Assembly (NCBI GenBank): GCA_025963715.1
Contig: JAOQAG010000004.1
Coordinates: 1-64,000 of the forward strand
Source of the DNA: Bacteroidota bacterium
GTDB taxonomy: Bacteria > Bacteroidota > Bacteroidia > 2-12-FULL-35-15
DNA length: 64,000 nucleotides
Direction of reading: 5' to 3'
Below, one piece after another: positions 7,245 through 54,135 of this stretch. Positions within the stretch are counted from its first letter, which is position 1; every line of letters begins with the position of its first letter. The position numbers were made by a program, and so were the translations under genes. The notes under the pieces were generated by a model. It searched no databases. It was not told the DNA's origin and saw only the letters and a list, made by a program, of their open reading frames with translations.

Positions 7245-7276
7245 AAAGGCCGGAATTATTTTCCGGCCTTTTTTTG
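7245..7276 (+). terminator. Rho-independent terminator after the 1453-aa adhesin
   Basis: aaaggccggaattattttccggccttttttt stem-loop plus T-run. Confidence 0.85.
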
Positions 7277-8460: not shown

Positions 8461-8566
8461 GAAATAAGAAGCAATAGATCAGATTCAAGAGTCAAACAAT
8501 CCTGATGGATGCGGTGTGAGAAATCTTTATTTGAATCAAATGCTCTTTGGAAACTGTCATCCCCTT

Positions 8567-8683
8567 CGCAGGCGCGAGTGTCCCAACGTGCCTTTTTATT
8601 TTTAGAGCGTCCCGCTCTTATGTATTTTAGTAATGGCAAGATGCCATAAAATAGTTTGGCACGTTGGGACACTCGCGCCTGCG
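8567..8683. mobile_element. MITE-like palindromic element, copy A (117 bp)
   Basis: 26-bp perfect terminal inverted repeats cgcaggcgcgagtgtcccaacgtgcc / ggcacgttgggacactcgcgcctgcg; near-identical inverted copy at 27613-27729. Confidence 0.8.
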
Positions 8684-8694
8684 CACAAAAAAAA

Positions 8695-8739
8695 CCTGTC
8701 AGGGTTTCAAACCCTTGAAGGGTTCGAAACCCTGACAGG
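8695..8739. repeat. 45-bp palindrome
   Basis: cctgtcagggtttc ... gaaaccctgacagg with inner aacccttgaagggtt. Confidence 0.85.
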
Positions 8740-8798
8740 GGAAGTTCTTTTAAACATACAGCAAACACGCAGATTAGTATATTCGTATTGATTGGTAT

Positions 8799-13980: not shown

Positions 13981-14726
13981 AAAAAGCGATCATTATTGAC
14001 GATGAACCCTTAGCCCGCAGCATCATTGCAGAATACCTGCAAACCCATACCGATATTGAACTGGTAACGGAATGCAACGATGGTTTTGAAGGCATTAAAA
14101 GCATTACGCAGCATCAGCCGGATCTGATCTTTTTGGATATTCAAATGCCAAAAATAAACGGATTTGAAATGCTGGAGCTGCTGACCACCACTCCTTCTGT
14201 GATCTTTACCACTGCGTTTGACGAGTATGCCATCAAAGCATTTGAGACCAACGCCATCGACTATTTATTAAAACCGTTTAATAAAGACCGTTTTGATGCA
14301 GCGCTGGAAAAATGGAGAAGCAAAGCGGGCGCTTCTGCGGATACCACAGCCAGCCACTTTCAGCATTTTATGCAGCACACCGAAAAACAACCGGAAGAAC
14401 GCAACCGCATTGTGGTGAAAAACGGTGCCGAGATCCGCATCGTTCCAGCCGAAGATATTTGTTACATCGAAGCGTACGACGATTATGTGAAGATCTTTAC
14501 CAAAGACAGCTATTACCTGAAAAAGAAAACAATGAATTATTATGAGCAGGTGCTCGATCCCGCTATTTTTTTCCGTACGCACCGCTCGTTCATCATCAAT
14601 ATTCACCAGCTTACTAAAATCGAATCGCTTGAAAAAAACAGTTACATCGCGATCTTAAAAAATGACAAGCGTATTCCTATCAGCAGGACAAGCTATAGTA
14701 AGTTGAAGGAAACACTGGGCTTATAA
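13977..14726 (+). CDS. LytTR-family response regulator
   Basis: Receiver domain (IIDDEPLARSII...DLIFLDIQMPKINGFEML) and LytTR domain (FFRTHRSFIINIHQLTKIE). Confidence 0.95.
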   Translation: MKKAIIIDDEPLARSIIAEYLQTHTDIELVTECNDGFEGIKSITQHQPDLIFLDIQMPKINGFEMLELLTTTPSVIFTTAFDEYAIKAFETNAIDYLLKPFNKDRFDAALEKWRSKAGASADTTASHFQHFMQHTEKQPEERNRIVVKNGAEIRIVPAEDICYIEAYDDYVKIFTKDSYYLKKKTMNYYEQVLDPAIFFRTHRSFIINIHQLTKIESLEKNSYIAILKNDKRIPISRTSYSKLKETLGL

Positions 14727-16387: not shown

Positions 16388-16484
16388 CTGTCATCCCGCA
16401 CTTGTTGCGGGATCCCGTAAATGTTTGCAGCCCCAACCACATTGTTTTTAATTAACCGATCCCGCAACAAGTGCGGGATGACAG
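16388..16484. repeat. 97-bp palindromic MITE/REP-like element
   Basis: 27-bp perfect inverted termini ctgtcatcccgcacttgttgcgggatc / gatcccgcaacaagtgcgggatgacag. Confidence 0.85.
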
Positions 16485-16694
16485 ATGAGAAGAAAAGTGT
16501 ACTCCGAATTAAGCATTCCTCACACAAGATTGACAGATGCATCTACCCAGATTTGTAAATTCGTATTCATTGGTAATTTGTAACACGCAGCCGTGTCATC
16601 CTGAGCCAGTCGAAGGACGTTTTTGTTCCTGCCCGAATCGTTCAGGCGGGCGTTATCTGTAACCCCTCTCGCCTGTTGTCTACTGCCTATTTGC

Positions 16695-17603
16695 CTACTT
16701 CTTCTGCAGCTCCTGCAGTTGCTTAAACAATTCCACTTCCTGCTCCGATAAATTTTTCGGTGTTATAATTTTCACTTTCACATACAGGTCGCCGTATTCT
16801 GTTGCTGCCCCAAATTTCGGCATCCCCATTCCCTTTAACCGTAATACTTTTCCGCTATCCGTTTCTTTTGGGATGTCAATTTTAATTGTTCCTTTCATGG
16901 TGCGCACCAATGCTTTTCCGCCTAACAATGCGGTATACAATTCAACGGGGGTATCAGCATACAGATCGTCTTCCTTACGCTCAAAATGCGGATGTGCGGG
17001 GATATGCACGGTAATGTATACGTCGCCGCGTGATCCGCTTTTTTGTTTTACACGCAGTGTTTGCCCGTCTTTCACACCTTTGAATTTCATTTGTAATTTT
17101 TCGCCCGGTAGTTCCAGCATCCGGGAAGCGCCTTCGTAGGCTTCTTCCAGCGACAAGGTTACTTCTGCGTTGTAGTCGCTTTTGCGTTTGTTGTTTGTAC
17201 GTCCTGCATTTCCGCCACCACCGCCAAAACTACTGCCGAAAATATTTTCAAAAAAGTCGGAAAAATTTGCGCCGCCAAAACCTTCATTGCCGGAACTGTA
17301 TTGTTGCTGGCGGTTTCCACCGGTTTGGTATCTCGACCAGTCAAAATCACCATTACGTTGTGTGCCTTGTTGTTCGTATTGTTTCCAGTTTGCTCCCAAC
17401 TCATCGTATTTCTTGCGTTTTTCGGGATCACTCAATACTTCATTCGCTTCGTTCGCTTCCTTGAATTTGTCCTCTGCAGGCTTATTTCCCTGGTTTTTAT
17501 CCGGATGATACTTGATCGCCAGCTTGCGGTATGCTTTTTTTATTTCGTCGGCACTCGCTGTTTTTGCAACACCAAGTATTTTATAATAGTCTTTGAAATC
17601 CAT
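16695..17603 (-). CDS. J-domain protein, DnaJ/CbpA type
   Basis: [40 protein letters not shown] and DnaJ C-terminal domain; no zinc-finger region. Confidence 0.93.
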
Positions 17604-18034
17604 TGGTATGAGTGGTTATTTTTGGTTTAAGAAATATAAAAGATTGATTAAAAATTTATGCCCGTTCGTCTTTTGCTTCATTCGCGGGGCTTTTCAGTGC
17701 TGCTGATCATTTTTTCGAAATGCAAATATCCACTATTTATTTATGATAAAAAAGAAGCAAAATCATACTCTGAACGATTAAAAATCATCGTTTTATTACT
17801 ATAAAATGCTACCTTAAAACCGTGTAAGTTTTTACTCAAAATAAACATAAATAACTAACAATCAATTAATTAAAAAATAAAAAGGCTTTTAGGATTAGTA
17901 GAATTTTACATTTTTACTTTTATTTTTTGAATTGAACGCTGTATTCTTGTATCGTGAATTTAAAAACACAGTATTGCTTGAGTATTTAATCAAATAATAC
18001 AAGAAGAAATTCACGGAGAATAAAAGATAAAAAT

Positions 18035-18042
18035 TACCTTTG
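18035..18042 (+). promoter_or_regulatory. Putative Bacteroidota -7 promoter element (TACCTTTG) for a candidate sRNA
   Basis: Exact match to TAnnTTTG; weak TTCACG-like upstream element 19 bp away. Confidence 0.5.
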
Positions 18043-18047
18043 CAGGC

Positions 18048-18228
18048 GATTTCGTAGGGAAGTTTGAAATAGAAAATAAAAGCGGGTAAAAAAACCGCAA
18101 TTAAATATCCAATTTGGCCGGAAAGGGCCGCTAAGACAGAATGGAAAAACAAAAATCGTGTAGACGATGAACGTTTTCCAATTCTAAAAGCATGTCGGAA
18201 GGAGAGAGCCGGCATGCTTTATTTTTTT
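18048..18228 (+). ncRNA. Candidate structured small RNA, about 180 nt, family unknown
   Basis: TACCTTTG promoter-like element upstream, internal stem-loops (gcgg/ccgc, ggcc/ggcc, ggaaaa/ttttcc enclosing atcgt-gtag-acgat) and a strong intrinsic terminator; no credible ORF. Confidence 0.5.
18187..18228 (+). terminator. Strong Rho-independent terminator
   Basis: aaagcatgtcgg-loop-ccggcatgcttt (12 bp including one G-U) followed by attttttt. Confidence 0.85.
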
Positions 18229-18431
18229 GTACCGGTACGGATAACGCCCGCCTGAACGATTCGGGCAGGAACAGAAACGAAACTGCGAATCTATGTCTAT
18301 CCAGTGTTTACTAAATCTTTTCTAATCCTTCCCCGAAGCTGTCATCCCTTGCCTGACACGGGATCTCATAAATGCTTGTAGTAAGTTAATAAAATACTTT
18401 ATTTTTTCTTCTCTAGTTTCTAAAAATATCG

Positions 18432-18439
18432 TACATTTG
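18432..18439 (+). promoter_or_regulatory. Putative hipBA promoter -7 element (TACATTTG)
   Basis: Exact TAnnTTTG match upstream of the hipB-like gene. Confidence 0.55.
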
Positions 18440-18443
18440 TAGC

Positions 18444-18496
18444 ATAAAAGCAACATTAAATAATTAAAAACTATTTATTGTAACATAAAAGCAACA
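18444..18496 (+). promoter_or_regulatory. Candidate HipB operator: direct repeat ataaaagcaaca x2
   Basis: Perfect 12-bp repeats at 18444-18455 and 18485-18496, 41 bp apart, between the -7 box and the start codon. Confidence 0.5.
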
Positions 18497-18499
18497 CTT

Positions 18500-18844
18500 A
18501 TGTACGCACAAAAAAACTGGTACAACCTCGGCGATCCCGCCATTGTTCGTGAGTTGAGCAAGCAGGTAAAACAAATGCGCATCAATAAAAACATGACGCA
18601 ACAACAGCTGGCAGAACGCACCGGGCTGGATCGCGTTACGATCAGTCGTTTTGAAAACGGCCGCGCTGCCACACTGCTCACCTTTGTAGAAATTTTACGC
18701 GCACTCGATAAGCTGGAATTACTTGACACTTTTACAGAAGAACCGGAGATCAGCCCGCTGAAAGTAGCCGAAATAGAGGAACAATACCGCAAACGCGCTT
18801 CTTCCAAAAAAGCAGATCCAAAACAAAAACCGTCTGAATGGTAG
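18500..18844 (+). CDS. hipB: XRE-family HTH regulator, HipB-like antitoxin
   Basis: HTH_3 signature MTQQQLAERTGLDRVTISRFENGRAATLLTFVEILRAL; overlaps the HipA-like ORF. Confidence 0.85.
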   Translation: MYAQKNWYNLGDPAIVRELSKQVKQMRINKNMTQQQLAERTGLDRVTISRFENGRAATLLTFVEILRALDKLELLDTFTEEPEISPLKVAEIEEQYRKRASSKKADPKQKPSEW

Positions 18845-20130
18845 CCAAAGTAAAAATATGGAACCAGTTGGTAGGTGCTGTTCTGTGGGATAAAAATGCC
18901 AATATTGCCCGCTTCGAATTTGATGAGCACTTTTTAAAACAAGGCCTGGACCTTTCCCCGGTACGCATGCCTGTCGCGGAAGCGCTAACCGGAAAAAAAA
19001 TTTACTCCTTCCCTGCTCTCCCTTTTGAAACCTACCGCGGTTTGCCCGGATTACTGGCGGATTCGCTGCCTGATCGTTTTGGGAATCAATTGCTGGATAC
19101 CTGGTTTGCACGACAGGGAAAAGATCCGGAACAGATAGATCCCGTAGAACGCCTGTGTTACATTGGTAAGCGCGGCATGGGTGCACTGGAGTTTGAGCCT
19201 TCCGGCGAATTGGCCAACAGCGCTTCCGAACACCTTGAAATAAAAGACCTTGTCAATCTTGCCAAAAAGGTAATGAACGAGCGGCAGGATCTGAAAACCA
19301 ATATTCACATCAACAGCGATGAAGGATTAAAACAGATCATCAGCGTGGGAACATCCGCAGGTGGTGCCCGTGCAAAAGCAATTATTGCGTATAATGAGGC
19401 AACCGGTGATGTACGCTCGGGACAAATGGATGAGTTGGAAAATTACAGTTACTGGATCATCAAATTTGATGGTGTTACCAATAAAACACTCGGCGATCCA
19501 AAGGAATATTGCCGCATCGAATACGCATATTACCGCATGGCGGTGGATTGCGGCATCATCATGGCCGAAAGTAAATTGCTGGAAGAAAACAAACGCGCCC
19601 ATTTTATGACCAAACGCTTTGACCGTCCGCAAGGCAATACAAGGCTGCACATGCAAACCCTGTGCGGATTAGCGCATTTTGATTACAATAATCCGGTGGC
19701 GTATTCTTACGAACAAACCTTCCAGGTGATGCGCCAGCTGCGGCTTCCATACAACGATGCAGAACAGTTATTTATGCGCATGACGTTTAATGTGATGGCC
19801 CGCAACCAGGATGATCATACTAAAAATATTGCTTTTCTGATGGATCAGCAGGGTACCTGGAGCCTTGCACCGGCGTATGACATGACGTATGCCTATGACC
19901 CGAATAATAAATGGATCCGCAGCCACCAGTTATCGCTCAATGGAAAACGCGATGACATCAGTAAAGCCGACCTGTTGGCCGTTGCGAAAGAAATGAACAT
20001 TAAAAAAGCAAATGACCTGGTTGAGCGTGTTGCCGCTAGCATCGGGCAATGGAAAAAATTTGCAACACAGGCTGGATTACCAAAAGAACAAGCAACAGCC
20101 ATTGCAAAAACACACCTGCTTTATCAATAA
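18838..20130 (+). CDS. hipA: HipA-like serine/threonine kinase toxin
   Basis: FETYRGLPGLLADSLPDRFGN, NVMARNQDDHTKNIAFLMD and LAPAYDMTYAYD motifs. Confidence 0.92.
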   Translation: MVAKVKIWNQLVGAVLWDKNANIARFEFDEHFLKQGLDLSPVRMPVAEALTGKKIYSFPALPFETYRGLPGLLADSLPDRFGNQLLDTWFARQGKDPEQIDPVERLCYIGKRGMGALEFEPSGELANSASEHLEIKDLVNLAKKVMNERQDLKTNIHINSDEGLKQIISVGTSAGGARAKAIIAYNEATGDVRSGQMDELENYSYWIIKFDGVTNKTLGDPKEYCRIEYAYYRMAVDCGIIMAESKLLEENKRAHFMTKRFDRPQGNTRLHMQTLCGLAHFDYNNPVAYSYEQTFQVMRQLRLPYNDAEQLFMRMTFNVMARNQDDHTKNIAFLMDQQGTWSLAPAYDMTYAYDPNNKWIRSHQLSLNGKRDDISKADLLAVAKEMNIKKANDLVERVAASIGQWKKFATQAGLPKEQATAIAKTHLLYQ

Positions 20131-23608: not shown

Positions 23609-23773
23609 ATACAGATAGCGCCCGCCTGAACGATTCGGGCAGGAACAGAAACGAATTTACGAATCCGGGTAAAATCAGTTCAAAGTTTAAAGTTCAAAGT
23701 TTGCTCTGCGCAGACGCTGTGTGCTGATCATATACTGGCTAAAATTATTCTTTTATTTCTATCATAAAAATAT

Positions 23774-23868
23774 CTGTCATCCCGGGCACCGACCCGGGAT
23801 CTCAGAAATGTTAGCAGCGCCAAATCCTGGTTTTTAATAAACAGATCCCGGGTCAGGCCCGGGATGAC
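23774..23868. repeat. 95-bp palindromic MITE/REP-like element, same family as 16388-16484
   Basis: Same layout: ctgtcatcccgggcaccgacccgggatc ... gatcccgggtcaggcccgggatgac with a shared core aaatgtt-gcagc-ccaa ... tttttaat. Confidence 0.8.
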
Positions 23869-23941
23869 GATCTGGAGGAGGAATTTCACTCCGAAATAAG
23901 CACAGATTCGTAATTTCGTTTTTTATTCGTTATCTGTACCA

Positions 23942-27612: not shown

Positions 27613-27729
27613 GCAGGCGCGAGTGTCCCACTCGTGCCAAACTATTTTATGGCATCTTGCCATTACTAAAATACATAAGAGCGGGACGCTCTAAAAATAA
27701 AAAGGCACGTTGGGACACTCGCGCCTGCG
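27613..27729. mobile_element. MITE-like palindromic element, copy B (inverted relative to copy A)
   Basis: Reverse complement of 8567-8683 with few changes, including the internal agagcgggacgctct hairpin. Confidence 0.8.
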
Positions 27730-27774
27730 AAGTATACAGATTCGTAATATTCGTTTCTGTTCGCTATCCGTAAA

Positions 27775-33797: not shown

Positions 33798-33990
33798 TTG
33801 CAAAAAAAGTTCAAAGTTTAAAGTTCAAAAGTTTAAAGTTTTGCTGTACAGATAACGCCCGCCTGAACGATTCGGGCAGGAACAGGAACGAAATTACGAA
33901 TCTGTGTGTCTACTAAATACCAATTTTTACGAATATACTAATTTACGTGTGTGCTGTGGGTGTTAAATCAGAGGCAAATCTCTCTTCGCA

Positions 33991-53973: not shown

Positions 53974-54135
53974 TTATTGATGAGTTGATTACTGATGTGC
54001 AGATGGCTGTACAGATAACGCCCGCCTGAACGATTCGGGCAGGAACAGAAACGAATATTACGAATCTGTGTATCTACCAAATACGAATATTTACCAATAT
54101 ACTAATCTGTGTGTTAAACTAAAATTATAAAATGT

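Follow-up and report, generated by a model that had tools for sequence, protein, structure and literature searches.

What is encoded by the DNA between a dnaJ-like gene and hipBA? On one side is a dnaJ/cbpA-like gene (16695-17603, minus strand; PF00226, PF01556). On the other are hipB (18500-18844) and hipA (18838-20130), both on the plus strand (PF01381, PF07804, PF13657). An earlier note proposed that an orphan structured small RNA (sRNA) occupies this gap; the dnaJ-like gene is divergent from this candidate. We examined the proposal in the context of the window, meaning the whole 64,000-nucleotide stretch of DNA analysed. A non-coding, independently terminated unit is the best reading of the block. 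Conversely, the accompanying ideas of a switchable fold and a 6S-like identity were not upheld. The candidate sRNA would span ~182 nt (18047-18228, plus strand). The block is single-copy and non-coding, matches no Rfam family and folds with a z-score of about -5. On balance, we favour the view that an intergenic sRNA of this length is encoded here by a gene standing on its own, ordinary in kind and specific to its lineage.

A strong intrinsic terminator has no coding gene to serve

The block ends with an intrinsic terminator, AAAGCATGTCGG-AAGGAGAGAG-CCGGCATGCTTT followed by ATTTTTTT (18187-18228, plus strand). This comprises a 12-bp stem, the loop AAGGAGAGAG and the T-run ATTTTTTT. The hairpin and T-run are as previously described, but the stem is only moderately GC-rich, with 6 of its 12 pairs being G-C. 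Compared with shuffled sequences, the terminator alone scores z -5.4. Its strength matches that of terminators found 3' of genes in the window, such as those at 7246, 25325 and 33763. Several strong plus-strand terminators in the window come after the stop codons of plus-strand genes. The candidate terminator has no plus-strand coding gene to serve. The nearest such gene in the 5' direction has its end at 14726, and between it and the terminator lie two genes on the minus strand, which encode a Por-secretion-tail protein and the DnaJ/CbpA-type chaperone. The sole long open reading frame in the block, 106 codons on the minus strand (17895-18215), has no Pfam match and a codon-use score below that of all known genes. 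The claim that no coding frame explains the block is thus borne out by both measures. Since the terminator lacks a coding gene, and the gap contains no coding-like frame, a non-coding plus-strand unit probably starts in the 580 nt 5' of the terminator. This position is the strongest evidence for the candidate sRNA.

Just 3' of the terminator, and outside the RNA, lies a copy of a dispersed repeat with the core GATAACGCCCGCCTGAACGATTCGGGCAGG (18235-18296, plus strand). The repeat is REP-like, with ~60 conserved bp; when at most 2 mismatches are allowed, the genome contains 70 copies, distributed over both strands. Five copies fall in the window (16628-16657 on the minus strand, 18240-18269, 23614-23643, 33851-33880 and 54014-54043). 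Here, the repeat starts about 10-15 nt past the T-run, and several other copies are directly 3' of stop codons. Such a placement would be expected at the end of a transcription unit. The candidate block itself occurs once in the genome and, hence, is not one of the local palindromic repeats. Separately, a second dispersed palindromic repeat, TGTCATCCCGGGCCTGACCCGGGATCT, was noted at 18337-18372 and in the flanks of L052 and L060. A degenerate copy of this element sits between the candidate and hipB.

Folding is concentrated in hairpin D and the terminator

All of the stems originally described, gcgg/ccgc, ggcc/ggcc and ggaaaa/ttttcc enclosing atcgt-gtag-acgat, were recovered at their reported places. 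Hairpin B (gcgg/ccgc; 18082-18098, plus strand) and hairpin C (ggcc/ggcc; 18116-18129, plus strand) form with pair probabilities of about 0.97-1.0 and about 0.98, respectively, in regions that fold no better than shuffles. Hairpin D (18138-18185, plus strand; z -4.0) has an internal loop and a GTAG apical loop. From the outside in, its layers are AGAAT/ATTCT, GGAAAA/TTTTCC (18143-18179) and ATCGT/ACGAT. The outer helix (18138-18142 with 18180-18185) was absent from the earlier note and brings hairpin D to 16 pairs. Against dinucleotide shuffles the whole block scores between z -4.7 and -5.2, but the 5' 90 nt, where stems B and C are located, reach no more than -1.3. The folding signal thus comes only from hairpin D and the terminator. 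Among 184 intergenic windows of 140 nt from the same 64-kb sequence, the block ranks between 15th and 30th. A strong fold alone is not unusual here, because the intergenic DNA is full of palindromic repeats. Five other intergenic segments (2382-2591, 8531-8740, 16391-16530, 23749-23888 and 27617-27756) fold with z-scores of about -6 to -9 on both strands; these are probably further palindromic repeats or terminators.

The proposed switch relied on CGATTT near the 5' end pairing with AAATCG in hairpin D. The complementary letters exist, but the switchable fold is unsupported at equilibrium. In the full RNA this pairing has a probability of ~0, and imposing it yields -39.8 rather than -52.5 kcal/mol, a cost of 12.7 kcal/mol. 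Only in nascent RNA ending near 18158-18163 does the probability rise, to about 0.3-0.6. Given the cost, any such pairing would be transient and confined to transcription. Furthermore, the alternative helix leaves the terminator intact. As the pairing is unpopulated in the full RNA, and the terminator is untouched, present evidence does not point to a regulatory switch.

A candidate promoter precedes the block

The TAnnTTTG-type -7 box reported upstream, TACCTTTG, is present at 18035-18042 on the plus strand. In flavobacteria, such boxes are located between positions -12 and -5 (PMC9723704), and the predicted +1 is near 18047. The window contains 68 TAnnTTTG boxes, counting both strands, meaning that they arise often by chance, and there is no TTG at the -33 spacing from TACCTTTG. 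For these reasons the box is only suggestive as a promoter element, and transcription may start farther 5' than 18047. Directly 5' of the candidate promoter is an imperfect inverted repeat (17944-18005) with 27-nt arms that are 70% complementary.

The candidate has no detectable homologue among the genomes compared

Consistent with the view that the block has no assignable family, our Rfam search of the block matched none. The ncr982 model gave 23 bits, against a cut-off of 50, and mainly matched the terminator. The conservation and covariation checks that had been proposed had nothing to work on, with no homologue found by BLASTN or by covariance model; hence, there is no covariation to report. 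BLASTN against 59 relatives returned nothing beyond chance matches, which were short and AT-rich. Of those overlapping the block, the best (G038) falls within a coding gene and was rejected. Nothing was found by BLASTN in 36 genomes of the order or in phage and plasmid records, nor by an exact 22-mer scan of viral contigs. A covariance model based on this one sequence was run on two samples, 395 genomes from the class and 396 from the phylum. It found the candidate itself and no homologue in either sample. Three weak matches in the 395 genomes (E 7e-4 to 7e-3 per genome) were judged to be chance; the strongest falls within a TPR gene, and in the other two some helices are broken or missing. 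Regions 5' of dnaJ in relatives share no sequence with the block, and the element is absent from 29 hipA loci of relatives.

In the closest comparison available, within the genus bin, DnaJ identity reaches at best 73%. With no near relative among the genomes compared, the element could be old in its species group yet invisible to these searches. For this reason, the lack of conservation does not amount to the refutation that the earlier note had set for sister genomes. Bacteroides thetaiotaomicron has 49 high-confidence intergenic sRNAs, of which 27 are strain-specific (PMC7366714). Orphan status is therefore normal for RNAs of this type.

Alternative explanations

Hairpin D and the terminator could be what is left of a plus-strand gene that has decayed or was very short, with the rest of the block being AT-rich spacer and nothing functional surviving. 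Such an origin would account for the folding data, where only these two elements surpass shuffles, and for the lack of conservation in any search. Moreover, dispersed repeats adjoin the region, which has thus been rearranged. However, the region holds no gene-like frame, and the terminator is nearly perfect, a state that a decaying relic need not keep. We regard this explanation as unlikely, while giving it some weight. Translation of an intact small protein is much harder to sustain. The block would then be a messenger for, say, a 40-codon frame on the plus strand (18192-18314) or the 106-codon frame on the minus strand. Both frames are open, but the 40-codon frame starts within the terminator hairpin and continues through the dispersed repeat. 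In addition, codon use in both is far below that of genes and neither matched a family. We consider a messenger of this sort very improbable.

The block shares its strand with hipBA, and a structured RNA ending in a terminator could be a cis-acting leader. Transcripts from 18035 would stop at the terminator unless a signal, or translation of a 9-codon frame within hairpin D (MEKQKSCRR; 18141-18170), refolded the RNA, as in attenuation or a riboswitch. The layout of the locus argues against this. The hipB start is 270 nt past the terminator, with the dispersed repeat intervening. Immediately before hipB is a -7-like box, TACATTTG (18432-18439, plus strand), that forms part of the probable promoter of hipBA itself. 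Two direct repeats of TTGTARCATAAAAGCAACA, each 19 nt and 41 apart (18437-18496, plus strand), are directly 5' of hipB and are probably HipB operators. Since hipBA has its own box and probable operators (18432-18496), it has no need of the terminator for attenuation. Nor does the full RNA contain a competing antiterminator helix, and two exclusive folds of similar energy, one of them with the terminator, were not seen; likewise, the hipA loci of relatives reveal no conserved association. We think a leader function improbable. A diverged 6S RNA, binding RNA polymerase, was hinted at by the length of about 180 nt, and Rfam models found no 6S RNA elsewhere in the genome. The architecture is nonetheless wrong. 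The block folds as separate hairpins, with no end-closing stem and without the one long, centrally bubbled hairpin of 6S RNA, and the 3' end is an intrinsic terminator. There was also no match to RF00013 or RF01685. Of 119 genomes from the class, the 6S-Flavo model (RF01685) matches only 3; because it is silent in nearly all of them, its silence here is uninformative. Neither architecture nor Rfam supports a 6S identity, which we deem scarcely credible.

A model for the candidate sRNA

Returning to the free-standing sRNA gene, our model is as follows. A sigma-A-type promoter with the -7 box TACCTTTG would direct transcription from near 18047, and the intrinsic terminator (18228) would end it. 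Hairpin D and the terminator would shield the 3' part of the RNA. The most likely action would be antisense pairing to at least one mRNA. The pairing segment might be the A-rich 5' third, which is mostly unstructured (about 18065-18081), the linker at 18099-18115 or the purine-rich terminator loop AAGGAGAGAG. Pairing was predicted against the leaders of 38 window genes, hipB and dnaJ among them, and exceeded shuffled controls for none. An RNA linking chaperone stress (DnaJ) to HipBA toxin control, via hairpin D or the terminator loop, is a notion to which we attach almost no credence; nothing was found in support.

Comparison with known systems

If transcribed, the candidate would be another orphan sRNA from an uncultivated Bacteroidota lineage, and of value for annotation. 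It would also show that strong terminators without genes are a good route to finding such RNAs. The general picture is unaltered by this example. Intergenic sRNAs have already been mapped in Bacteroides, and the candidate would belong with them as a kind, not as a homologous family. With 6S RNA (RF00013, RF01685) the candidate shares only its length. The closer likeness is to GibS of B. thetaiotaomicron (PMC7366714), where an open 5' part is followed by small hairpins and then by an intrinsic terminator. Along with further sRNAs of that organism, GibS resembles the candidate in being an intergenic single gene of a similar length class with a Bacteroidota-type -7 box, and most sRNAs of this type are narrowly distributed (PMC7366714). 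Unlike that group, the candidate is missing the -33 element; the likeness is one of layout, and we claim no similarity of sequence. A parallel is also found in Flavobacterium psychrophilum, in which RNA-seq mapped the independent non-coding transcripts Rfp1-89, with TAnnTTTG promoters and a median length of 176 bp (PMC9723704). The candidate is a prediction only, but is likewise short, non-coding and preceded by a TAnnTTTG box, and its box-to-terminator length of about 182 nt is near the Rfp median.
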